From the NCBI RefSeq assembly GCF_026151205.1, contig NC_087072.1, forward strand, positions 16,569,669 through 16,633,668: DNA of 64,000 nt, given 5' to 3'. The translations under genes were made by a program, and so were the position numbers. This DNA is from Bolinopsis microptera (lineage: Eukaryota; Ctenophora; Tentaculata; Lobata; Bolinopsidae). Shown in pieces: positions 15,213 through 64,000 of this stretch (positions are counted from its first letter, which is position 1; each line of letters opens with the position of its first letter). Below the pieces are notes generated by a model, which made no database searches, had not been told where the DNA came from, and saw only the letters and a program-made list of their open reading frames with translations.

Positions 15213-16253
15213 AACCTTAAAACACAACCGTGACATTACTCTACCACTTACAGTTACCACCTTAAAACACAACCGTGACATTACTCTACCATTTACAGTT
15301 ACCACCTTAAAACACAACCGTGACATTACTCTACCATTTACAGTTACCACCTTAAAACACAACCGTGACATTACTCTACCACTTACAGTTACCACCTTAA
15401 AACACAACCGTGACATTACTCTACCATTTACAGTTACCACCTTAAAACACAACCGTGACATTACTCTACCACTTACAGTTACCACCTTAAAACACAACCG
15501 TGACATTACTCTACCACTTACAGTTACCACCTTAAAACACAACCGTGACATTACTCTACCATTTACAGTTACCACCTTAAAACACAACCGTAACATTACT
15601 CTACCACTTACAGTTATCACCTTAAAACACAACCATGACATTACTCTACCGCTTACAGTTACCACCTTAAAACACAACCGTGACATTACCCTACCATTTA
15701 CAGTTACCACCTTAAAACACAACCGTAACATTACTCTACCATTTACAGTTATCACCTTAAAACACAACCGTGACATCACTCTACCACTTACAGTTACCAC
15801 CTTAAAACACAACCGTGACATTACTCTACCACTTACAGTTACCACCTTAAAACACAACCGTGACATTACTCTACCACTTACAGTTACCACCTTAAAACAC
15901 AACCGTGACATTACTCTACCACTTACAGTTACCACCTTAAAACACAACCGTGACATTACTCTACCACTTACAGTTACCACCTTAAAACACAACCGTGACA
16001 TTACTCTACCACTTACAGTTACCACCTTAAAACACTACCGTGACATTACTCTACCATTTACAGTTACCACCTTAAAACACAACCGTGACATTACTCTACC
16101 ACTTACAGTTACCACCTTAAAACACAACCGTGACATTACTCTACCACTTACAGTTACCACCTTAAAACACAACCGTGACATTACTCTACCACTTACAGTT
16201 ACCACCTTAAAACACAACCGTGACATTACTCTACCACTTACACTTACAGTTAC
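15213..16253. repeat. 45-bp minisatellite, about 23 copies
   Basis: Head-to-tail units of 45 bp that contain ccttaaaacacaaccg, tgacattact and ctaccacttacagtt. Copies differ by single changes, mostly C/T or A/G, such as ctaccattta for ctaccactta. Because 45 is divisible by three, one minus-strand frame stays open through most of the array as a 15-residue repeat. One copy near 16035 carries a change (cactaccg) that closes that frame. There is no start context or flanking domain to support coding. Confidence 0.95.
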
Positions 16254-20400: not shown

Positions 20401-23400
20401 CCTCGTTCCCAGATGCAAACTCCGAAAGATTTCTTCACGGTACCAAAAGGATGGACGTGGGAAGGCGAGTGGGAAATTCAGCCAAAGAAAGGTTCGCTAG
20501 TTAGCGAAGAGTTCACACTGAAAGAATGGGTTGACAGAAGATATGAGACGGTGAACTATTTTGATCCGGGTGATATCGAGACTCAATGGTGGAACAAGGT
20601 TCTCATTTTTATTGATTTGGAGAGTCATGCAGTGTGAAAAGAGAAATGAAGCAAGTTTAGAGAATGCAAGTTTAAACAAAGGAGTTAGTTGAAAAACTAA
20701 CACTTCTAATCTATTACATTCAGGACATGATAGAATCGAGCGCTAAAGATGAAGTTAAGTTGTCCAGTGACTGGGAGTGGACACATGAGTGGGTCATTGA
20801 CTCAGAGGAACCTGGAGACGTTGATGGTAAATTTAAAATTTCTTTAAACTTAAAGGTTCTAATCGACATTTTGTCAATGCCTCAAAACATTTTGTCATGA
20901 ATGCCAAACAACTTTTTCTAAAATGGTAGGGAATGAAATATCGAGAGGTGTAATGTTCGGCCACCGTATATTAGATTAAATAGATCGAATGTAAAAATCA
21001 ACAGATAAATTTCACAGTATAGATTTAAGTTCGAACTAACTCCGTTCATTTAGGATGGTCCTACACACATAGTCCAGATAGTCAGACATACACATGCTCT
21101 GAGAAGAAAGGAAATTCGTTTAAGAGAAGAATGTGGAAAAGAGAAAGAGTCAGAAATGGGCCTCCAGTTCTGCCCGATATAAAGGTATGCTAATTAGGTG
21201 ATCCTGCTAATTATGTGCTAATTAGGTGATCCTGCTAATTATGTGCTAATTAGGTGATCCTGCTAATTATGTGATAATTAGGTGATCCTGCTAATTAGGT
21301 GATAATTAGGTGATCCTGCTAATTATGTGCTAATTGGGTTATCCTGCTAATTAGGTGCTAATTAGGTGATCCTGCTAATTTGGTGCTAATTTGGATGATC
21401 CTGCCCTTGTTTAATTGTGATTATGTATGGGAATAAGCTGTCAGAATGATATACCAGCTATGTGAAAATTAGGCCAGCTATGTGTTCATTAAACTATTCC
21501 AATTCTCACCTACTTCCAAATAAAGCTAACCCCTGCTAAGTCATTTAAATTTTAACCTATTAGCGCCATAATTTTTCAAGATTATAGAAATAACATACTT
21601 TAAATTAAAACTTCGTGATTTGTTAATGTCAAGAAAAAAGGAGCCGTTATAATGTTCTCAATTCAGGAAGTTGTAGAAAAGAAGGGCGGATGGGTGTACA
21701 GCAAAACATTCAAGAGCAAGTTCAATATTGAAGAATTATCAACTGACATGGTCAGACGAAGAAGATGGATTCGAAATATGTCCTCAATGGATCCTTGTAA
21801 GTTCTTGAGACAGTGATCTCCTGATCTCTGATCAGGAGTAAGAATTTCTCGACTCTAGATTCTAGAGTGAATCATTAACTACTCTTACGTCAGTTTGATC
21901 AACCATTTCTATTTTGGGCCATATTTTTGATTTTAAGACAAAAAGTTACATAAAATATGTATATCATTGTAATTTTAATTTCGTAGATGCTGTTACCTTC
22001 TCGACAAAAACAGCAAACGCGGTGGTCACAGTAGCTCCCTCTCTGTTATTGAAGTTTCCAGGTAGACTGCCGACTTACTTACTTTAGGTTGAAACCATAT
22101 GAATGAACCATGCGTAATATTTTTTACTTTGAAAGATGCTTACCTCTCTCTCATCTTGCATACTTGTTTAAAGTCTATTGTTTTACGAAGGTCAATTATG
22201 TTTTCATCACTCATTATATTCCCTTAAAACTTAAATAATATTTGACAGATATGCTCCGTTACGAAGTTCGAGTTCACATCTTCCAAGGGAGGACCCTCAC
22301 TTCCCCCGACATTATGGGATACGTCAGTAAGTCAATATATGGTGCTATTTTGCAATCTAATAACAGCAAAGGATATAAGGTAAGCGAAATTGGGCCTATC
22401 TGGCTCATTTCAGACGGCACTATAATGCGTATTGGTCATATGGTGCAACTGGAGGGGGTTCGTAGCAGCAAACCTGTGTTTCATTTGGCTCTGATAACTC
22501 CATTGGTTTTATCAAAAGCTTTCAGTGGTGCTGATAGCGGGTAATATTTCCAACGCTGCATACGATGTTTTTAGGGCCAATGGATTTTACAAAATATCGA
22601 CGATCATGTTTACATTTGTGTTAACTGTGATAAACGTCACTATACCTATGGCTATTGGCTATATGCTTATATGCTTATATGCTTATATGCTTATATGCTT
22701 ATATGCTTATATGCTTATATGCTTATATGCTTATATGCTTATATGCTTATATGCTTATATGCTTATATGCTTATATGCTTATATGCTTATATGCTTATAT
22801 GCTTATATGCTTATATGCTTATATGCTTATATGCTTATATGCTTATATGCTTATATGCTTATATGCTTATATGCTTATATGCTTATATGCTTATATGCTT
22901 ATATGCTTATATGCTTATATGCTTATATGCTTATATGCTTATATGCTTATATGCTTATATGCTTATATGCTTATATGCTTATATGCTTATATGCTTATAT
23001 GCTTATATGCTTATATGCTTATATGCTTATATGCTTATATGCTTATATGCTTATATGCTTATATGCTTATATGCTTATATGCTTATATGCTTATATGCTT
23101 ATATGCTTATATGCTTATATGCTTATATGCTTATATGCGCATATATTGCGCATAATTGCGATGATTCTCGCATTTTCCTTGTTACGAACTATGCTGCTGC
23201 AGTCACGGCTGACAGAACGATTTTTCAGCGGTGTACGGGATTGTTTGTGTTTCTGGAGTTACTCATGTGACAAGGACAATCGAGCACCAGCTCTCTCCTA
23301 CCTTCGACCAGACCCTTAAGTTTGAGGATATAGAGGTTATAGGGAGTTCTGAGTACCTACACTTAACTCGACCTAAAGTTACCATCCTCCTCTTCCACAA

Positions 23401-51890: not shown

Positions 51891-54089
51891 TTAAATTTCA
51901 CGTCTAGACTGTCTTAGGCCAGGAACATTGTGCAGTAGGAATGGTTGCCACTCGTTAACATCACCATCACTTTGAAGATTAAGAAGCATTTTCTTGGCAC
52001 TACTCTTGAACAGATTTATCGAAAATAATGTCGGAAGTGTAGTAACGTCTGCTTTGTCTGCGAAGACAGAGAGCAGTGGTCCCTTGTAGAAAATACTGTT
52101 TTGAAAGTGTCTTTTCCCGTATAACTGGAGCCAGGAGCAGGCTGACGTGTGATCAGAAAGTTTTGTGGGTATGTCGACGGGAAAAGCTTGAGAGATGTTT
52201 TTGGGGACTAATTGTGGCATGCTTTTAACTTTATGCATCAAGATAATTGAGTTGTAAACGATAAGACCATGCACAGTGAGAATTTCATGTTCACTGAAAA
52301 ATGGCTTTGTGTGTTGTGGTAAGGCACCTTCCTTAAAGTAGTAGTTTACGAAGCCAGGCATAATAGCCCTTATTCCTTGCTTCTGTTTGCTGAATAAAGC
52401 ATCTATATGGCTTTTTGCAGCAAAACCCCATATCAATGAACAATAGTTTATATGAGACTGTACAAAGCTTTGGTATATCTGGAGTCTAACTTTAATCGGC
52501 AGCCGACTTTTTATTTTGTACATAATACCAATATACCGCATCATTTTCGCTTTAAGAGCAGTAATGTGACTGGTCCAGGTCAATTTTTCGTCAACAATTA
52601 CGCCAAGAAATCGGGCCTCAGTTTTTCGCTCAATAGTGGTGCCTGCAATTTGAATATTTACGTCAGGTGTTGAGGTTCTGTTGGGTGAGAGGAGCATGTA
52701 GCACGTTTTCTTAAGGTTTAACGAAAGACCATTTTGATCTACCCAGTTTATCAATAAAGGTGAAAATTCGGTCATCTTTTGTAGTATTTCTTGATGATTT
52801 TTACCTGAGATAATTATGTTTGCGTCGTCAGCATATAAAACAAATTTAGCGTACGATTTGATTTTTGGCATGTCATTGATATATATTATGAAAAGTAAAG
52901 GTCCTAAAATACTGCCTTGCGGCACTCCGTGTCTCATGGACTGTGAGGAAGAATTTGTGCCCCCTATTGAAACATACTGACTCCTGGAACTTAGATAAGA
53001 CTTGAACCATTGGTGTGCTAGTCCTCTTATGCCATAATGATACAGTTTGTCTAAGAGAATATCGTGGGAAATTACATCAAACGCTTTGCTAAAATCAAGT
53101 AGGAGGAGTAGAGAGACCTCTTTTTTGGAGAGGTTGTGTCTAATCGTGTTGGTTGCATCAAGGAGCGCATGTTCACACGACCGACCCGGCCGAAAACCGT
53201 ATTGTCCTTCAAATAAAGTGCTATGTCGCTCCAGGAAGTCAAGGACTCTTCTGTGCATGAGTTTCTCATAGATTTTTGAAAAGGTGCAGAGCAATGATAT
53301 TGGTCTGTAGTTTTTCACATCCAGTTTTGAGCCTCCCTTAAGGATAGGAACTACCTTTGCAATTTTCAGTGATGTCGGAAAGCAGCCTTCATTGAAGGAA
53401 GAATTTACTACATTTGAGAGTATTCCACAAAACTTAGGACAATCCTTGGCAATCTTGAGCGGCTCAACTTTTACATCCTGTGTGGCCTTATTTTTCAAGG
53501 TACATATTGTTCGTTGGATTTCGACAGGATCAGTGGGCGAGATGAACATGCTCTCCTCAACCTGGCTGTCTAAATATCTTGCATGCCCGCCAGGGTCGAA
53601 AGTGGTACGCGCACTGATCTGATCTTTGATTCTAGTTGCTATATTAGCAAAGTACGCGTTGAAATGTTCAGCAACATCGCGGTTCGAATTTATCAAGTTT
53701 CCATCATCTCTCCTCAATTTGAATTTGGAATTTTGCTTAGCTTTCCTGCCTAGAAGTTTATTTATCATCTCCCACTGTTTCTTGGAATTGTACTGATATT
53801 CTTCAAAGTATTTTTTGTGGTATTTGTCCCTTGCTAGATTGATATGTTTTTCACAAAAATTTTTCAATTTTTTGTACGTAGCATCATTTTTCTGTGTGGG
53901 GCAAACTGTGGATTCAAAATACATCAAGTTTTTTCGAGCACACGCGTCTTCAAGCCACGGCAGAATAAAAGGCTTGGGGTTTTTCCTTTCATTCATCCTT
54001 CTGACATGCTTAGATTTGATTGGATACGCGGTGTTATAGTGCTTGTTGTAAATTTCGTTGAACTTATCATACTGCTCATTAGCATCCAT
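51891..54089 (-). CDS. Reverse transcriptase of a non-LTR retrotransposon
   Basis: 732-residue open frame from the first Met. RT blocks in order: KVVPILKGG and NYRPISLL at about 245-267; QYGFRPGRSCEHAL at 296-309; motif A LLLDFSKAFD at 329-338; GVPQGSILGPLLF at 388-400; the catalytic YADD at 419-422; LNLKKT and FLGVIVD afterwards. A C-terminal part with ARAIMPG-like IRAIMPGF and many hydrophobic blocks follows. No LTR, protease or integrase is present. Motifs fit the CR1/L2/Jockey side of the non-LTR tree; the exact clade needs a tree. No stop or frameshift interrupts the RT, so the copy is young, though its 5' half is lost and it cannot move without help. Because the frame stays open upstream, the Met at 54089 is not the native start. 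Confidence 0.88.
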   Translation of the reverse strand: MDANEQYDKFNEIYNKHYNTAYPIKSKHVRRMNERKNPKPFILPWLEDACARKNLMYFESTVCPTQKNDATYKKLKNFCEKHINLARDKYHKKYFEEYQYNSKKQWEMINKLLGRKAKQNSKFKLRRDDGNLINSNRDVAEHFNAYFANIATRIKDQISARTTFDPGGHARYLDSQVEESMFISPTDPVEIQRTICTLKNKATQDVKVEPLKIAKDCPKFCGILSNVVNSSFNEGCFPTSLKIAKVVPILKGGSKLDVKNYRPISLLCTFSKIYEKLMHRRVLDFLERHSTLFEGQYGFRPGRSCEHALLDATNTIRHNLSKKEVSLLLLLDFSKAFDVISHDILLDKLYHYGIRGLAHQWFKSYLSSRSQYVSIGGTNSSSQSMRHGVPQGSILGPLLFIIYINDMPKIKSYAKFVLYADDANIIISGKNHQEILQKMTEFSPLLINWVDQNGLSLNLKKTCYMLLSPNRTSTPDVNIQIAGTTIERKTEARFLGVIVDEKLTWTSHITALKAKMMRYIGIMYKIKSRLPIKVRLQIYQSFVQSHINYCSLIWGFAAKSHIDALFSKQKQGIRAIMPGFVNYYFKEGALPQHTKPFFSEHEILTVHGLIVYNSIILMHKVKSMPQLVPKNISQAFPVDIPTKLSDHTSACSWLQLYGKRHFQNSIFYKGPLLSVFADKADVTTLPTLFSINLFKSSAKKMLLNLQSDGDVNEWQPFLLHNVPGLRQSRREI

Positions 54090-54237
54090 GTTTGATGTTA
54101 TTTGCTCCCAATTTTCAGCGTCGATCAGTTCGTAAAATTTTAAGTTATTAGCGGCGTTGAATGCACGTGTATCACGCTTTTGTGATCGTTCGGTTTTGGA
54201 TCGATCATTAGGCTCATGGTAGTCGGGTGCCGCGCGG

Positions 54238-54267
54238 ACTTATCGCTCGGTCGATCGAGCGATAAGT
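54238..54267. repeat. 30-bp palindrome at the retrotransposon truncation point
   Basis: Arms acttatcgctcg and cgagcgataagt are perfect complements around gtcgat. It lies exactly where the reverse-transcriptase reading frame closes. It may mark a fold-back or rearrangement made at insertion. Confidence 0.65.
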
Positions 54268-54386
54268 AGCTCCTTATCGCTCGTGCGCGTCGTCACTTCA
54301 AGCACAATTGCGCGTCGTATCGTACTCGATGCTTGCCAAAGAGCTTTAATACTTTGGTTTTGGCGTGTTACATCTGAAGTCCAGAA

Positions 54387-55340
54387 GATGAATCCGAGAT
54401 TGTGGAACCAGATGATACGGTTTTTGAGGCATTTTGATACGGTCATTTCAGTCTTTTAAAGTAGTTTCAGAGTGCTGGAAATGGTTGTACGGTGTAGGGG
54501 GATGTGTTTACTAACTATTTTGACGTCAAAATTGTCGCCAGAGGCTCCCTGAGTCATGGAATGAACGGAATGAACAAAAATGAATTTTTTTTCTAAAACT
54601 CGTCGGATTGCCCCAAAACAGGTCGGAATCGTTTGGTATTGACCCTTATAGTGTTCCTACAAAGTTTGGTGGCCCTAGCACTCCCAGAACGCCCACTAGA
54701 GACTTAATTCCATTTCCGTATCAAAAAGCTGGTTCCTGAGTATCCGATATTGATACGGTCATTTCAGTCTGTTAAAGGGGCTGCAGAGTGCTGGAGATGA
54801 TTGTACGGTGTAGGGGGATGTGTTTACTAACTATTTTGACGTCAAAATAGTCGCCCAAGACTCCCTGAGTCATGGAATGAACGGAATGAACAAAAATGAA
54901 TTTTTTTTTCTAAAACTCGTCGGATTGCCCCAAAACAGGTCGGAATCGTTTGGTATTGACCCTTATAGTGTTCCTACAAAGTTTGGTGGCCCTAGCACTC
55001 CCAGAACGCCCACTAGAGACTTAATTCCATTTCCGTATCAAAAAGCTGGTTCCTGAGTATCCGATATTGATACGGTCATTTCAGTCTGTTAAAGGGGCTG
55101 CAGAGTGCTGGAGATGATTGTACGGTGTAGGGGGATGTGTTTACTAAATATTTTGACGTCAAAATAGTCGCCCAAGACTCCCTGAGTCATGGAATGAACG
55201 AAATGATCAAAAATGAACATTTTTATAAAACTCGTCGGATGGCCCCAAAACAGGTAGGAATCGTTTGGTATTGACCCTAATAGTGTTCCCACAAAGTTTT
55301 GTGGCACTAGCACTCCCAGAACACCCATTATACCCTTGGC
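54387..55340 (+). repeat. ~316-bp tandem repeat, cluster 1 (about 3 units)
   Basis: The word gatacggtcatttcag recurs at 54436, 54752 and 55069, a period of 316-317 bp. Each unit contains acggtgtagggggatgtg, a ttttgacgtcaaaa palindrome and cctagcactcccagaac. The last unit is more diverged. The same unit is found in reverse on the other side of the next gene (58405-58875), so the two clusters act like inverted terminal repeats around it. Open frames here are shadows. Confidence 0.9.
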
Positions 55341-55774
55341 TGGATTCAAGAATTTAGAACCAGTTGAGCAGATAAAACGGATTTTGAGAAATTTTGTCTG
55401 CTTGTGTTGTTGCAGAGAGTTGAATTTGGTTCAACAGTATTCAAACAAGATGTGTTCCAACTTAGTTTTGTAGCCCTACCAGTTTCAGAACGTCCACTAG
55501 AATCCGGTTCCATTTTCTTCCAAGAAGCTGTAGACAAGGTTGTTTGAAATTTAAATTTAACCTCTCTGGTAATACAACTTTTTACTTGGATGGATTTCAA
55601 TAATTAAAGAGAGCAGATTGTTACTTTGTTATTTTTGAGATTTGATTTTTTGATATCATATGTATAAATGTATAAATCAGTTTCTACAAATTATAACAGC
55701 AATTGGCAGTAATAAAGCGGTAGTAATAGTTTTGCACAACATCAATCATAATATCATTCAATACTTCAATACCT
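55341..55774. other. Spacer between repeat cluster 1 and hexapeptide-repeat gene
   Basis: AT-rich sequence in which the 3' UTR of the minus-strand gene should lie. A worn repeat-related word (cgtccactagaatccggttc) occurs near 55490. Confidence 0.4.
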
Positions 55775-57865
55775 TCAAAATAATTTAACTCGGTTATAAT
55801 AATTTAAACGCAGATCTAAAAGAACTAAGCACAGTAGTAGGATGAACTTCCAGGCAAGGTTGGAGGAAGGTAGAGGTGAAGCTGTGGGTAAGGATAGTAG
55901 GCTGGGAAGGATCCATTTCTGATCCAGAGCTGATGATTTGGGTTGAACTGATGATTTAGGTGGTACAGATGATTTGGGTTGAGCTGATGATTTGGGTTGA
56001 GTTGATGATTTGGGTTGAACTGATGATTTGGGTTGAGCTGATGATTTTGGTTGAGCTGAAGATTTAGGTTGAGCTGATGATTTGGGTTGAACTGATGATT
56101 TGGGTTGAGCTGATGATTTGGGTTGAACTGATGATTTGGGTTGAGCTGATGATTTGGGTTGAACTGATGATTTGGGTTGAACTGATGATTTGGGTAGAAC
56201 TGATGACTTGGGTTGGGCTGATGATTTGGGTTGAACTGATGATTTAGGTGGTACAGATGATTTGGGTTGAGCTGATGATTTGGGTTGAGTTGATGATTTG
56301 GGTTGAACTGATGATTTTGGTTGAGCTGAAGATTTTGGTTGAGCTGAAGATTTGGGTTGATCTGATGATTTGGGTTGAGCTGATGATTTGGGTTGAGCTG
56401 ATGATTTGGGTTGGGCTGATGATTTGGGTTGAACTGATGATTTAGGTGGTACAGATGATTTGGGTTGAGCTGATGATTTGGGTTGAGCTGATGATTTTGG
56501 TTGAGCTGAAGATTTAGGTTGAGCTGATGATTTGGGTTGAACTGATGATTTGGGTTGAGCTGATGATTTGGGTTGAACTGATGATTTGGGTTGAGCTGAT
56601 GATTTGAGTTGAACTGATGATTTGGGTTGAGCTGATGATTTGGGTAGAACTGATGACTTGGGTTGGGCTGATGATTTGGGTTGAACTGATGATTTAGGTG
56701 GTACAGATGATTTGGGTTGAGCTGATGATTTGGGTTGAGTTGATGATTTGGGTTGAACTGATGATTTTGGTTGAGCTGAAGATTTTGGTTGAGCTGAAGA
56801 TTTGGGTTGAGCTGATGATTTGGGTTGAGCTGATGATTTGGGTTGAGCTGATGATTTGGGTTGAGCTGATGATTTGGGTTGAGCTGATGATTTAGGTGGT
56901 ACAGATGAGTTGGGTGGTACAGATGAGTTGGGTGGTACAGATGAGTTGGGTGGTACAGATGAGTTGGGTGGTACAGATGAGTTGGGTGGTACAGATGAGT
57001 TGGGTGGTACAGATGAGTTGGGTGGTACAGATGATTTGGATGAGGGACGAGAGGAAGACAGTTCCTTAATACAATCTAGACTATGTTTGGAAATAGATGG
57101 ATCAATCTTTACATAATCAGAAAACTTAGGCAAATCTATATCTGAACGTTTCAACTTCTTACTCTTAAACTTAGGTGCTTGCTCGAAATCCTCGTCTGAG
57201 TCGACAGAGGGTTTGACTGAATGTTTACGTGACTGATTATCTAACTTGGCACCTAGTTCCTTCCTATTCTGGAGTACCTGTTCGGCAGAACAAATCATAA
57301 CAGAGTACGACTTGTCTGCCCGAACTTCCTCAACAGAATGAAACAACTGGTCAGAGTATCTAACTAAAATCTTAGAACTTATGGAGGTGTGGAAACTTGC
57401 AACTATTCCATCTAATACTTTCTGGCTCTCCAAGAGATTAAACTTAAGAGACCTATCAGTTATTATGCAGCTATATAAATTTAAGAGAGCCTCTACAGAG
57501 CCATCCTTATCTAGTGAGCAGTGGTCAGAACATTAATATACATCTAAAGTGTGCTTACAGGGGAAAAAGTGCTTAAAGAACTGTTGCAACTTATCAGATA
57601 AAGGAAACATGAGCTGAACTAAGGAACTACAAAACAATCTAACGTGGGGTATCTTAGGACCTGACTTAAGATCAGAAATGAACACATAAGAACCACACTC
57701 TAACCGCAGTACTACAGAGGAGCACACGGTCAGGGGGTCAGAATAAGCATGTGATAAAGGAGGCAAAGCATCCTGCATATTATGATAATATACACCTAAA
57801 GATGAATCGAACTTGTGGGAGTCACGAATGAGCTCAACCACGGCATTTACCTGAGATGTATCCAT
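55775..57865 (-). CDS. Hexapeptide-repeat protein, left copy
   Basis: No family recognised. Two open segments in the same frame, 57865-57559 and 57510-55775, are separated by one TAA. Removing a 48-nt GT-AG intron (57511-57558, donor t/gtaagc, acceptor ctcactag) gives one frame of about 680 residues. Residues 1-230 are a globular-looking, conserved part, with acidic and basic stretches (VDSDEDFE; KFKSKKLKR, a possible nuclear signal). After that come seven SVPPNS units and then some 50 units of S-A/V-Q-P-K-S (18 bp each), ending in a hydrophobic C terminus (WKFILLLCLVLL). The alternative is read-through of the TAA, or a dying gene. The second copy at 62069 has the same structure, which argues for function. 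A TATA box lies about 315 bp upstream. Confidence 0.6.
55930..57045 (-). repeat. 18-bp coding tandem array, left copy
   Basis: About 62 units of 18 bp. The first seven (57045 down to about 56910) read tctgtaccacccaactca in the coding sense, the rest mostly aaatcatcagctcaaccc with A/V/T/D/L variants. Higher-order blocks of about 450 bp are repeated (56248-56445 resembles 56698-56895). Confidence 0.9.
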
Positions 57866-58179
57866 AGGGAGTAGTCGTGTTGACTGAGTTAGCTGTAAAA
57901 AACAGCCAATAAGTAAAACTCAGATAGGGAGAAGTGTAGTCAAAGAACTGGTTGAAGGAAACAACACAGTCCAGATAGGAGTAGGAAGGGAGGACTCAGA
58001 ACTAGTTGTAGAAAACAACGTAGTTTAGAGTAAAGTAGGCAAAGAAGACAGGCACGTAGCGTAAACTACAAAATAAAAATGTGTATTTGAAAGATAGAGC
58101 TTAAAGTTGAAATGTCAAAAGATTGTACTCAGTGTGTGAAATAGTAAACTGAAACCGGGTGAGCTATATTTCACGAGGG

Positions 58180-58187
58180 TATTTATA
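58180..58187 (-). promoter_or_regulatory. TATA box of left hexapeptide-repeat gene
   Basis: Read on the minus strand it is cgggTATAAATAccctcg, about 315 bp before the start codon. The same box is at 61747-61754 in front of the right copy. The flanking ggg and ccc make it a short palindrome. Confidence 0.5.
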
Positions 58188-58404
58188 CCCGCTTCATCGT
58201 GACAGGGATAACGAGCCAATTGTTTACAAACAAGCAGCAAGCATGTGAATCCTTCTTGATAAGGTTCAGATCACGTTTGATCGCATGCAGGGTTCTTGTC
58301 TCCGATAGATCAGATCATTGTCTTCTAAGAAGATCATATCCTCGTTCTTGCCCCCTCTGGCTCCAGTGGATCTCATCATTACTCGATAAGCATCGGATCA
58401 AATG

Positions 58405-58875
58405 ATTGCCTCAAAAACCGTATCATCTGGTTCCACAATCTCGGATACTCAGGAACCAGCTTTTTGATACGGAAATGGAACCAAGTCTCTAGTGGGCGTT
58501 CTGGGAGTGCTAGGGCCACCAAACTTTGCAGGAACACTATTAGGGTCAATACCAAACGATTCCGATCTGTTTTGGGGCAATCCGACGAGTTTAGAAAAAA
58601 TTTCATTTTTGTTCATTCCGTTCATTCCATGACTCAGGGAGCCTCTGGCGACAATTTTGACGTCAAAATAGTTAGTAAACACATCCCCCTACACCGTACA
58701 ACCATTTCCAGCACTCTGAAACTACTTTAACAGACTGAAATGACTGTATCAAAATGCCTCAAAAACCGTATCATCTGGTTCCACAATCTCGGATACTCAG
58801 GAACCAGCTTTTTGATACGGAAATGGAACCAAGTCTCTAGTGGGCGTTCTGGGAGTGCTAGGGCCACCAAACTTA
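58405..58875 (-). repeat. ~340-bp tandem repeat, cluster 2 (about 1.4 units)
   Basis: Inverted version of the units in cluster 1, with the extra piece gagattgtggaaccagatga that lengthens the unit to 340 bp. It lies just upstream of the left hexapeptide gene. Matching short frames on both strands are non-coding. Confidence 0.9.
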
Positions 58876-60721
58876 GGCATCCAATCTTTGCAGTTGTTTC
58901 TTTCATGGTAGTTGCGAGCGTCTATACTTTCAGTCTTTAGCTTGCTCATTTTGTATTTACATCATTTGTACAAGACTAGATGGTAGCCATGTTCTGTGTC
59001 CTAAACCTAACTTTAGTGTGCATGTTATCTATTATGTTGGTCTCAGTTTAAACCTGAAAGCCATTGAATATGTTTGCCACTGCTTCTCAGCTGATCATAA
59101 ATAATTTAAAATAGGGTTCAGTGTTCTGACCATTTGTGTATGTAGATGAAGCAAGGTCAGGAACCCAGCACGGTGAAGGATTAGGCCGGTTATCTAGCAA
59201 AGATCTCTGTCACTATACTTTTGTTGCTCAGTATCATTAGTATCATCATTGAAGATTGTGCATACACAACTTTATTAAAGTAAATGTTAGACAGTGTTAT
59301 TTCGAATACATCCCAGCACAAATATTATCAGCTTCATCAATCTTGATATCTTAGCGATGACCCTGGTCAAACAATTTAAAACTTCTGTAATTTCATTTCT
59401 AGTATGCGTATAGGAAATCGATAAGGCTTTAAAATGATATGTTCGGCGACCTTTCAGCTCAATCACGAGACTCAGTAGGAGTGATTGAACTGCAAGGGAC
59501 AATTGAGGCTAACGAATTAGCAGTTTCAAGTTAAGTTTAATATAATAACGAATTAATTATAATAACCAATGAATTATACAGGTTGTACGTACACGCCACA
59601 GAATTAAAAACGTTCTGATCGAGCTGCACTTGCACTTATGAGCTGAACGTTTGCGGAGTTAAAATCGCAAGCTACCAACGCGATACTTCCAAATATAGTT
59701 GCGCGGCTTATTAGTAAAATTAAAAATTAGCTTTCGAATGTTTATTGTTTATTTTGATTTTGTTGCATATTGTTTTCAATTAAATTATATCTAATTTACA
59801 ATTTATAAATAAAATGTATACTGAATACAACAATTTTTTTAAAATCTAATTATAGTCTGAAGCTAATTTTTAATTTTACCTATAAGCCGCGCAATTGCCT
59901 TTTGAAAGTTTCGCGTTTGTAGCTCGCGATTGTAACTCCGCAAACGTTCAGCTCATCAGTGCAAGTGCAGCTCGATCAGAACGTTTTTAATTCTGTGGCG
60001 TGTACGTACAACCTGTATAATTCATTGGTTATTATAATTAATTCGTTATTATATTAAACTTTACTTGAAACTGCTAATTCGTTAGCCTCAATTGTCCCTT
60101 GCAGTTCAATCACTCCTACTGAGTCTCGTGATTGAGCTGAAAGGTCGCCGAACATATCATTTTAAAGCCTTATCGATTTCCTATACGCATACTAGAAATG
60201 AAATTACAGAAGTTTTAAATTGTTTGACCAGGGTCATCGTTAAGATATCAAGATTGATGAAGCTGATAATATTTGTGCTGGGATGTATTCGAAATAACAC
60301 TGTCTAACATTTACTTTAATAAAGTTGTGTATGCACAATCTTCAATGATGATACTAATGATACTGAGCAACAAAAGTATAGTGACAGAGATCTTTGCTAG
60401 ATAACCGGCCTAATCCTTCACCGTGCTGGGTTCCTGACCTTGCTTCATCTACATACACAAATGGTCAGAACACTGAACCCTATTTTAAATTATTTATGAT
60501 CAGCTGAGAAGCAGTGGCAAACATATTCAATGGCTTTCAGGTTTAAACTGAGACCAACATAATAGATAACATGCACACTAAAGTTAGGTTTAGGACACAG
60601 AACATGGCTACCATCTAGTCTTGTACAAATGATGTAAATACAAAATGAGCAAGCTAAAGACTGAAAGTATAGACGCTCGCAACTACCATGAAAGAAACAA
60701 CTGCAAAGATTGGATGCCTAA
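58876..60721. other. Inner part of the palindrome, no gene
   Basis: Contains the inner arms and the ~115-bp AT-rich spacer (about 59741-59855). The two ~71-residue open frames that mirror each other across the centre (59287-59502 and 60092-60307) have no recognisable domain, and their matching merely reflects the inverted duplication. Confidence 0.5.
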
Positions 60722-61528
60722 GTTTGGTGGCCCTAGCACTCCCAGAACGCCCACTAGAGACTTGGTTCCATTTCCGTATCAAAAAGCTGGTTCCTGAGTA
60801 TCCGAGATTGTGGAACCAGATGATACGGTTTTTGAGGCATTTTGATACGGTCATTTCAGTCTGTTAAAGTAGTTTCAGAGTGCTGGAAATGGTTGTACGG
60901 TGTAGGGGGATGTGTTTACTAACTATTTTGACGTCAAAATTGTCGCCAGAGGCTCCCTGAGTCATGGAATGAACAAAAATGAAATTTTTTCTAAAACTCG
61001 TCGGATTGCCCCAAAACAGATCGGAATCGTTTGGTATTGACCCTAATAGTGTTCCTGCAAAGTTTGGTGGCCCTAGCACTCCCAGAACGCCCACTAGAGA
61101 CTTGGTTCCATTTCCGTATCAAAAAGCTGGTTCCTGAGTATCCGAGATTGTGGAACCAGATGATACGGTTTTTGAGGCATTTTGATACAGTCATTTCAGT
61201 CTGTTAAAGTAGTTTCAGAGTGCTGGAAATGGTTGTACGGTGTAGGGGGATGTGTTTACTAACTATTTTGACGTCAAAATTGTCGCCAGAGGCTCCCTGA
61301 GTCATGGAATGAACGGAATAACAAAAATGAAATTTTTTTCTAAACTCGTCGGATTGCCCCAAAACAGATCGGAATCGTTTGGTATTGACCCTAATAGTGT
61401 TCCTGCAAAGTTTGGTGGCCCTAGCACTCCCAGAACGCCCACTAGAGACTTGGTTCCATTTCCGTATCAAAAAGCTGGTTCCTGAGTATCCGAGATTGTG
61501 GAACCAGATGATACGGTTTTTGAGGCAA
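60722..61528 (+). repeat. ~340-bp tandem repeat, cluster 3 (about 2.4 units)
   Basis: Units with anchors gatacggtcatttcag at 60844 and gatacagtcatttcag at 61184, a period of 340 bp. It is the right-arm partner of cluster 2 and has one unit more. Orientation is opposite to cluster 2 and equal to cluster 1. Confidence 0.9.
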
Positions 61529-61746
61529 TCATTTGATCCGATGCTTATCGAGTAATGATGAGATCCACTGGAGCCAGAGGGGGCAAGAACGAGGATATGA
61601 TCTTCTTAGAAGACAATGATCTGATCTATCGGAGACAAGAACCCTGCATGCGATCAAACGTGATCTGAACCTTATCAAGAAGGATTCACATGCTTGCTGC
61701 TTGTTTGTAAACAATTGGCTCGTTATCCCTGTCACGATGAAGCGGG

Positions 61747-61754
61747 TATAAATA
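61747..61754 (+). promoter_or_regulatory. TATA box of right hexapeptide-repeat gene
   Basis: TATAAATA inside gcgggTATAAATAccctcg, about 315 bp before the start codon at 62069. It mirrors the left copy exactly. Confidence 0.5.
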
Positions 61755-62068
61755 CCCTCGTGAAATATAGCTCACCCGGTTTCAGTTTACTATTTCACAC
61801 ACTGAGTACAATCTTTTGACATTTCAACTTTAAGCTCTATCTTTCAAATACACATTTTTATTTTGTAGTTTACGCTACGTGCCTGTCTTCTTTGCCTACT
61901 TTACTCTAAACTACGTTGTTTTCTACAACTAGTTCTGAGTCCTCCCTTCCTACTCCTATCTGGACTGTGTTGTTTCCTACAACCAGTTCTTTGACTACAC
62001 TTCTCCCTATCTGAGTTTTACTTATTGGCTGTTTTTTACAGCTAACTCAGTCAACACGACTACTCCCT

Positions 62069-64000
62069 ATGGATACATCTCAGGTAAATGCCGTGGTTGA
62101 GCTCATTCGTGACTCCCACAAGTTCGATTCATCTTTAGGTGTATATTATCATAATATGCAGGATGCTTTGCCTCCTTTATCACATGCTTATTCTGACCCC
62201 CTGACCGTGTGCTCCTCTGTAGTACTGCGGTTAGAGTGTGGTTCTTATGTGTTCATTTCTGATCTTAAGTCAGGTCCTAAGATACCCCACGTTAGATTGT
62301 TTTGTAGTTCCTTAGTTCAGCTCATGTTTCCTTTATCTGATAAGTTGCAACAGTTCTTTAAGCACTTTTTCCCCTGTAAGCACACTTTAGATGTATATTA
62401 ATGTTCTGACCACTGCTCACTAGATAAGGATGGCTCTGTAGAGGCTCTCTTAAATTTATATAGCTGCATAATAACTGATAGGTCTCTTAAGTTTAATCTC
62501 TTGGAGAGCCAGAAAGTATTAGATGGAATAGTTGCAAGTTTCCACACCTCCATAAGTTCTAAGATTTTAGTTAGATACTCTGACCAGTTGTTTCATTCTG
62601 TTGAGGAAGTTCGGGCAGACAAGTCGTACTCTGTTATGATTTGTTCTGCCGAACAGGTACTCCAGAATAGGAAGGAACTAGGTGCCAAGTTAGATAATCA
62701 GTCACGTAAACATTCAGTCAAACCCTCTGTCGACTCAGACGAGGATTTCGAGCAAGCACCTAAGTTTAAGAGTAAGAAGTTGAAACGTTCAGATATAGAT
62801 TTGCCTAAGTTTTCTGATTATGTAAAGATTGATCCATCTATTTCCAAACATAGTCTAGATTGTATTAAGGAACTGTCTTCCTCTCGTCCCTCATCCAAAT
62901 CATCTGTACCACCCAACTCATCTGTACCACCCAACTCATCTGTACCACCCAACTCATCTGTACCACCCAACTCATCTGTACCACCCAACTCATCTGTACC
63001 ACCCAACTCATCTGTACCACCCAACTCATCTGTACCACCTAAATCATCAGCTCAACCCAAATCATCAGCTCAACCCAAATCATCAGCTCAACCCAAATCA
63101 TCAGCTCAACCCAAATCATCAGCTCAACCCAAATCATCAGCTCAACCCAAATCATCAGCTCAACCCAAATCATCAGCTCAACCCAAATCTTCAGCTCAAC
63201 CAAAATCTTCAGCTCAACCAAAATCATCAGTTCAACCCAAATCATCAACTCAACCCAAATCATCAGCTCAACCCAAATCATCTGTACCACCTAAATCATC
63301 AGTTCAACCCAAATCATCAGCTCAACCCAAGTCATCAGTTCTACCCAAATCATCAGCTCAACCCAAATCATCAGTTCAACTCAAATCATCAGCTCAACCC
63401 AAATCATCAGTTCAACCCAAATCATCAGCTCAACCCAAATCATCAGTTCAACCCAAATCATCAGCTCAACCTAAATCTTCAGCTCAACCAAAATCATCAG
63501 CTCAACCCAAATCATCAGCTCAACCCAAATCATCTGTACCACCTAAATCATCAGTTCAACCCAAATCATCAGCCCAACCCAAATCATCAGCTCAACCCAA
63601 ATCATCAGCTCAACCCAAATCATCAGATCAACCCAAATCTTCAGCTCAACCAAAATCTTCAGCTCAACCAAAATCATCAGTTCAACCCAAATCATCAACT
63701 CAACCCAAATCATCAGCTCAACCCAAATCATCTGTACCACCTAAATCATCAGTTCAACCCAAATCATCAGCCCAACCCAAGTCATCAGTTCTACCCAAAT
63801 CATCAGTTCAACCCAAATCATCAGTTCAACCCAAATCATCAGCTCAACCCAAATCATCAGTTCAACCCAAATCATCAGCTCAACCCAAATCATCAGTTCA
63901 ACCCAAATCATCAGCTCAACCTAAATCTTCAGCTCAACCAAAATCATCAGCTCAACCCAAATCATCAGTTCAACCCAAATCATCAACTCAACCCAAATCA
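62069..64000 (+). CDS. Hexapeptide-repeat protein, right copy (cut by window end)
   Basis: Mirror copy of the gene at 55775-57865: residues 1-102 in 62069-62375, a 48-nt candidate intron 62376-62423 that contains the in-frame TAA at 62399-62401, and a second part from 62424 to the window end still inside the repeat array. The N-terminal 110 residues are identical to the left copy. The array has three more SAQPKS units than the left copy before the shared internal block. Start: the first ATG after the TATA box that opens this frame. Function unknown. Confidence 0.6.
62887..64000 (+). repeat. 18-bp coding tandem array, right copy
   Basis: Seven SVPPNS units followed by more than 50 S-x-x-P-K-S units, running past the window end. 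Third-position and GCT/GTT changes produce the A/V alternation. Confidence 0.9.

Follow-up and report, generated by a model that had tools for sequence, protein, structure and literature searches.

The repeat-rich segment at the right end of the window (the whole 64,000-nucleotide stretch analysed, C1:16569669-16633668 of a 264.65-Mb eukaryotic assembly) is a single 11.25-kb palindrome, which starts at window position 54211, continues past the window to coordinate 65460 and is flanked by TTA and TAA. It is likely a non-autonomous, near-perfectly palindromic Foldback-type transposon from a lineage in which fuller relatives code for a KDZ-like (CxC4/Ulp1) transposase. Two Foldback-type traits are present: long inverted termini built from tandem units, the architecture that an earlier note on this DNA had recognised, and dispersed copies with constant ends at identifiable empty sites. 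The palindromic copies are probably helper-dependent.

Layout of a single palindrome

The features are collected in Table 1. The inverted arms pair over 2,941 nt at 96% (55934-58874 with 61060-64000) and, towards the centre, over 1,074 nt at 99% with 207 nt between them (58620-59693 with 59901-60974); the N-terminal regions of the two arms are identical across 822 bp. TRF places cluster 1 at 54434-55327, with a period of 317 and 95% matches. The inner part of the left arm segment encodes, on the minus strand, the last ~50 codons of a fused ORF, and the segment is present too in copies with other gene fragments.

The repeat clusters of the earlier note are confirmed, with its mirror cluster moved from 60722 to 60716. 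Its element start, 54387, gives way to 54211, as the units come only after 176 bp of terminal repeat. The missing fourth cluster that it had sought beyond 64000 lies there in reverse orientation, and what it took for a second, mirrored copy is the other half of the same palindrome. Two independent head-to-head elements are rejected, given that the same central spacer is found in nine of 11 copies examined (both centre halves accompany it in seven of those nine) and that at empty sites it is only the two outer flanks that are found joined. The spacer is absent from C5:13718k and from the examined part of the C2:35k copy.

Table 1. Parts of the palindromic element, in window coordinates continued past position 64000
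Feature	Coordinates	Strand	Remark
Left flanking TWA (TTA)	54208..54210	.	TTA also at the one empty LINE site read
Left outer terminal repeat, starting GGCTCATGGTAGTCGGGTG	54211..54386	+	Short subterminal palindrome, by eye
Unit cluster 1, ~three 315-317-bp tandem units	54387..55340	+	
Arm segment between units and array	55341..55926	+	
18-bp x 62 array, KSSAQP-type repeats	55927..57039	-	Expanded linker of transposase gene
Transposase N-terminal region, left-arm copy	57040..57865	-	Stop at codon 111
5' region of left-arm gene	57866..58404	-	Mirror of 61530-62068
Inner unit cluster 2	58405..58878	-	
Centre, left half	58879..59693	.	
Central asymmetric spacer, 207 bp	59694..59900	.	68% identity to its own reverse complement
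Centre, right half	59901..60715	.	
Inner unit cluster 3	60716..61529	+	
5' region of right-arm gene	61530..62068	+	TATA-like TATAAATA by eye at 61747-61754
Transposase N-terminal region, right-arm copy	62069..62894	+	Same stop as left
18-bp array, right arm	62895..64000, on to about 64061 past the window	+	
Right arm segment, beyond window	64062-64647		
Fourth unit cluster, beyond window	64648-65284	-	
Right outer terminal repeat, beyond window	65285-65460		
Right flanking TAA, beyond window	65461-65463		

At C5:13718200-13736500, an inverted-repeat element of ~17 kb carries the same 317-bp units with different outer ends. In the window itself, outside the palindrome, an 8-bp unit, TATATGCT, is repeated 60 times at 100% (22660-23138), and a 45-bp unit is repeated 23 times at 97% (15214-16247), part of this array being an open minus-strand frame.

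Ends, insertions and target site

The ends recur across the assembly, hits being spread over contigs C1-C13 and a few small ones. With a 22-base end pattern that itself includes TWA, so that ends with three other bases escape the search, 83 ends with at most two mismatches were found genome-wide and none with a reversed control pattern; 13 facing pairs were counted among the 83. The end has the form TWA followed by GGCTCATGG, and a perfect 19-base core is preceded by TWA in 47 of 55 listed ends. The unit cluster has at least 52 genome matches (40 of 174 candidates scored). The co-occurrence at many loci envisaged in the earlier note is borne out: the ends are constant, the insertion target is short, and most copies read contain both unit and gene. 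The terminal ~20-25 bp also occur on other elements, whose interiors are unrelated.

Three insertions have identified empty sites, namely the window copy, C6:9696455 and C6:11225142. The window copy interrupts a LINE, with the reverse transcriptase on the left (a 732-aa frame at window 51891-54089, RVT_1 E 9e-36) and the endonuclease part, recognised by eye, on the right. With 40 of 138 candidates scored, nine LINE copies are listed that run across the joined flanks; seven of them measure 400 bp, one 399 and one 401, where the joined flanks come to 401. The one empty LINE site read is CATTAGCAGGACTG, and the filled site runs CATTA, element, TAAGAGACTG; the 1-bp gain is read as TWA plus a 2-bp loss of flank. 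C6:9696455 sits in a reverse transcriptase copy, where the predicted 34-bp empty site is matched exactly by 34 among 40 listed, and its insertion gains 10 bp that resemble an end fragment, possibly an excision footprint. For C6:11225142, which lies in a repeat and has the best-supported empty site, insertion without gain is rejected: measured against the joined flanks, 20 of 21 full-span rows fall short by 3 bp and the remaining one by 1 bp. In a search with the predicted single-TWA empty site, 17 of 21 matches are exact, and the filled copy is bordered by TAA to its left and TTA to its right, though the empty site holds a single TWA.

Gains at other loci are mixed. Of the six rows for the flanks of C9:217683, three gain 3 bp, two gain nothing and one gains 5 bp; of the nine for C3:20381770, five gain 3 bp, the others showing 4, 5, 12 and 12; C6:7631832 has a single row, 3 bp longer, and C8:16410924 a single row, 6 bp shorter. 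For a duplication of TWA, the record consists of the 3-bp gain at a single TWA in C6:11225142, these mixed gains, and a middle base W that is equal on both sides in five of the 13 pairs and unlike in eight. A target-site duplication (TSD) of 4-15 bp is rejected, with none in 11 flank pairs tested to 15 bp; the longest flank identity is 3 bp, so the 7-8 bp TSD that characterises Galileo and the P superfamily, and also KDZ/Zisupton, does not appear among these pairs. Copying of one end onto the other is a possible way of swapping W, but C6:11225142 and C10:12798414, two of the eight pairs with differing W, carry two different end types, which argues against it in those two.

Some arrangements consist of little besides ends. 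C8:16410924-16411033 is a near-perfect palindrome of 110 bp from match to match, with TTA on both sides, and represents a minimal mobile form. Back-to-back end pairs sharing one triplet occur at C5:9228631-9228671, C9:13619039-13619079, C10:8867876-8867916 and C10:15288961-15289001, the triplet being TWA in three of the four.

The transposase-like gene and its fuller relatives

The earlier note saw a novel cargo gene unlike a transposase. Comparison with other copies points elsewhere: the gene is the N-terminal part of its own lineage's transposase-like protein, the rest having been deleted after the array. The right-arm frame of the C9:2549487 copy is 534 aa long and, over its first 270 codons, has 52% identity with the beginning of a long C2 frame; the window-type protein and C2:1184558 share 58% identity across 110 aa. 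One damaged copy (C2:35.7k-45k) preserves the order N-terminal region, 18-bp array, core, Ulp1, and because of this order the array would be a linker within the gene, and what the window carries would be the 5' part of that gene, joined to arm sequence.

The fuller relatives correspond to a protein of roughly 1,800-1,900 residues. In the long C2 frame, 1,029 aa were read; they include CxC4 and, recognised by eye, C2H2-like and SWIM-like motifs. CxC4 (PF18717) is matched only in the fuller relatives, at E 1.1e-9 to 1.7e-8 (38.6, 35.0 and 34.9 bits against a cut-off of 26.9), and is absent from the window copy. The C1 relative has a SAP match at E 3.1e-4, whose 20.7 bits lie below the curated cut-off of 23.9, and downstream a C48 protease match at E 1.9e-6, above the cut-off. 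Within the protease (alignment A3), H446, D467, Q507 and C513 are invariant in all three rows, at the places expected for Ulp1, and solved Ulp1-type structures match this part weakly (E 0.003 and 0.008). Run against PDB sequences, the core and N-terminal profiles gave no match in one case and a single one, at E 0.99, in the other. The Pfam KDZ core, PF18758, has no match in the scanned proteins or the genome, and 14 control genomes are equally silent.

The relatives are variously damaged. The gene of the C2 relative is cut by a 241-bp palindromic insertion at about 1181.5-1181.7k, and the C1 relative changes frame near its start. C2:2447k has all parts at 82-97% identity together with a unit cluster, and no end within two mismatches. 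C6:9696455 has these ends around a broken gene, with core and Ulp1 parts and without the N-terminal region, and is the only copy read with these ends that holds the transposase core; a copy that combines these exact ends with a complete transposase is not known in this genome.

These copies bear directly on the strongest competing explanation, in which the ends are those of a PIF/Harbinger-type transposase with its gene at another locus, and the CxC4/Ulp1 gene is captured cargo. PIF/Harbinger elements have a TWA target and ends beginning with GG, as seen here. A 3-bp TSD is given for them in the abstract of PMC2213677. That C6:9696455 alone combines these ends with the core, and that elements with unrelated interiors share the terminal sequence, would fit such capture. 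Set against this, the core and Ulp1 parts do sit between these ends in C6:9696455, unit stretches (34-51 bp, 84-91%) recur beside the diverged C2 relative, and no Harbinger-like protein was noticed among the ORF lists read. The W that differs between the sides in eight of 13 pairs is a point of difference from PIF/Harbinger elements. Capture by a Harbinger-type system looks unlikely, and the reading of the gene as the lineage's own transposase is preferred.

Copy numbers differ along the gene. The start of the protein, for which the earlier note proposed a genome search, does recur: a 110-residue query gave 33 listed matches, 21 of them full-query at 96% or more and 20 of these 21 stop-free, and frames among the genome matches reach 558 aa. 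For the Ulp1 end (residues 270-583), 47 rows include, besides the query, seven matches of at least 96%, six of them stop-free, and the one such locus read has the same units and arm segment as the window element. The core gave 24 rows, with matches of at least 95% only at C6:9701922 (the query) and C2:2452k. Because these counts differ, different derivatives keep different ends of the transposase gene.

Fourteen arms show 0-9 differences per 822 bp, and these copies are a young burst; the left arm of C6:11225142 (64 or so differences) and the C2 copy (about 16) are more distant over the same length. Between lineages, dN is 0.39 and dS is saturated, which argues that the N-terminal region was once constrained. 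Unique changes in 13 young arms comprise 18 non-synonymous (2 of them nonsense) and 2 synonymous ones, where a site ratio of ~3.7:1 predicts ~4 synonymous among 20, so recent changes in the burst give no sign of purifying selection, in small numbers. The codon comparison was made without C6:11225142 (left arm divergent, right arm 821 bp), the left arm of C9:2549487 (not full length) and the C2:35k copy.

Selection is also relevant to whether the truncated N-terminal protein is a working regulator, kept because it controls transposition. The truncated P-element protein KP does control transposition, and the stop-free copies of the first 110 codons, the longer frames and a TATA-like motif seen by eye in each arm are compatible with such a role. 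The young arms, few as their changes are, show no visible constraint, and the frame is broken by the codon-111 stop, present in both arms of the window copy and common to C6:7631832, and by a stop at codon 203 in C5:12407764. A regulatory function is accordingly judged quite unlikely.

Probable arm copying and comparison with known systems

The two arms of one element resemble each other to a degree that varies along the palindrome. Sister arms differ by 0 per kb in the gene tail (6.2 between elements), by 2.6 in the N-terminal region (5.0-5.1) and by 2.6 in the 5' region (3.7), and in the segment that adjoins the units sisters are no more alike than arms of different elements (5.4 against 5.2-5.3); one arm of C6:11225142 was excluded from this comparison for three segments, as were arms whose segments are incomplete. 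For gene tail and N-terminal region combined, the true pairing ranks first among 720 pairings of six elements. From the units to the 5' region (four segments: gap, tail, N-terminal and 5'), 12 element-private changes occur in both arms and 34 in one, and no allele is shared with other elements yet confined to one arm.

The centre behaves differently. It holds 3 private changes in both arms, 19 in one and 52 side-shared, with six side-fixed differences when one exception per side is allowed. Divergence there is 12.5 per kb between sisters, 5.75 between same-side halves of different elements and 14.1 between other-side halves; sisters are slightly closer than random, 18 of 5,040 pairings lying at or below the observed value. 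From these patterns, we infer that the palindrome arose once and that its outer arms were later copied onto each other.

C6:11225142 is a chimeric copy, with 62 differences between its left and right arms in about 815 aligned sites. Beside C6:9696455, at C6:9709101-9709421, a 197-bp flank and an end fragment are duplicated, apparently joined at CTAG, in what looks like a template-switch scar.

A mechanism can be proposed on this basis. A transposase from a fuller copy would act in trans on the element ends, and the arms would have grown as internal coding sequence was recruited into the inverted repeats. Lost or broken ends might be rebuilt from the other arm's copy, which would leave the outer arms alike while side differences are kept in the centre. 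The truncated N-terminal gene would be a passenger.

The weakest explanations can be dealt with briefly. Nothing was found in favour of the earlier note's host satellite around a host gene, which is very improbable in view of the dispersed copies, constant ends and empty sites, and which uninterrupted copies of the LINE refute for the window copy. Palindromes are a known artefact of some libraries, but an assembly artefact is equally improbable here, as the arms of several copies differ by private mutations, the central spacer is asymmetric and two unlike flanks rejoin at empty sites.

Drosophila FoldBack termini contain tandem units. In the passages available of PMC4022104, this group has long inverted terminal repeats around a central loop, and several of its families are non-autonomous, likenesses shared by the present element; the differences here are the CxC4/Ulp1 lineage, the ~317-bp units and the coding sequence in the arms. 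Galileo, of the Drosophila P superfamily, is similar in its long inverted termini with tandem repeats, which according to an excerpt of PMC4168063 lengthen both by expansion of the tandem repeats and by taking in internal sequence, a 69-bp piece of the ORF among it, and in its chimeric copies with non-matching flanks (described in part of PMC3573991). It differs in its P-type transposase and 7-8 bp TSD, against a KDZ-like lineage and TWA here, where moreover the whole N-terminal coding region and the 5' region stand in both arms. The element works in the manner of Foldback/Galileo but is not a Galileo, and it is KDZ-like by CxC4 only.

The likeness to Zisupton/KDZ lies in that cysteine cluster of the fuller relatives, which Pfam links to KDZ transposases. 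The difference lies in the TSD, reported in a passage of PMC12730594 as 8 bp for Zisupton and Dileera and 7 bp for Kyakuja, against TWA here, and in the unmatched PF18758, on which the control genomes are silent too; for Pristionchus Zisupton, an excerpt of PMC9297572 mentions that no duplication was detected. In the listed titles, abstract openings and passages of the literature searched, no pairing of Foldback architecture with a KDZ-like transposase was seen, and the one paper checked that mentions both is unrelated.

A wider proposal, tentative and on balance doubtful, is that these elements are a transposon group of their own, with a KDZ-like CxC4/Ulp1 transposase, whose integration at TWA does not duplicate this target faithfully. 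Donor-derived TWA overhangs would pair with the near-palindromic target, the middle base being reset at each jump, and palindromic non-autonomous forms would persist because a lost end can be restored from the opposite arm.

The region shows how such elements become self-mirrored copies, and it would link the Foldback architecture with a transposase lineage of KDZ-like type. Fuller elements, palindromes with one gene end, copies with the other end, young copies, empty sites and a signal of arm copying occur together in one genome, and the differing W at the target offers a testable clue to the integration chemistry.
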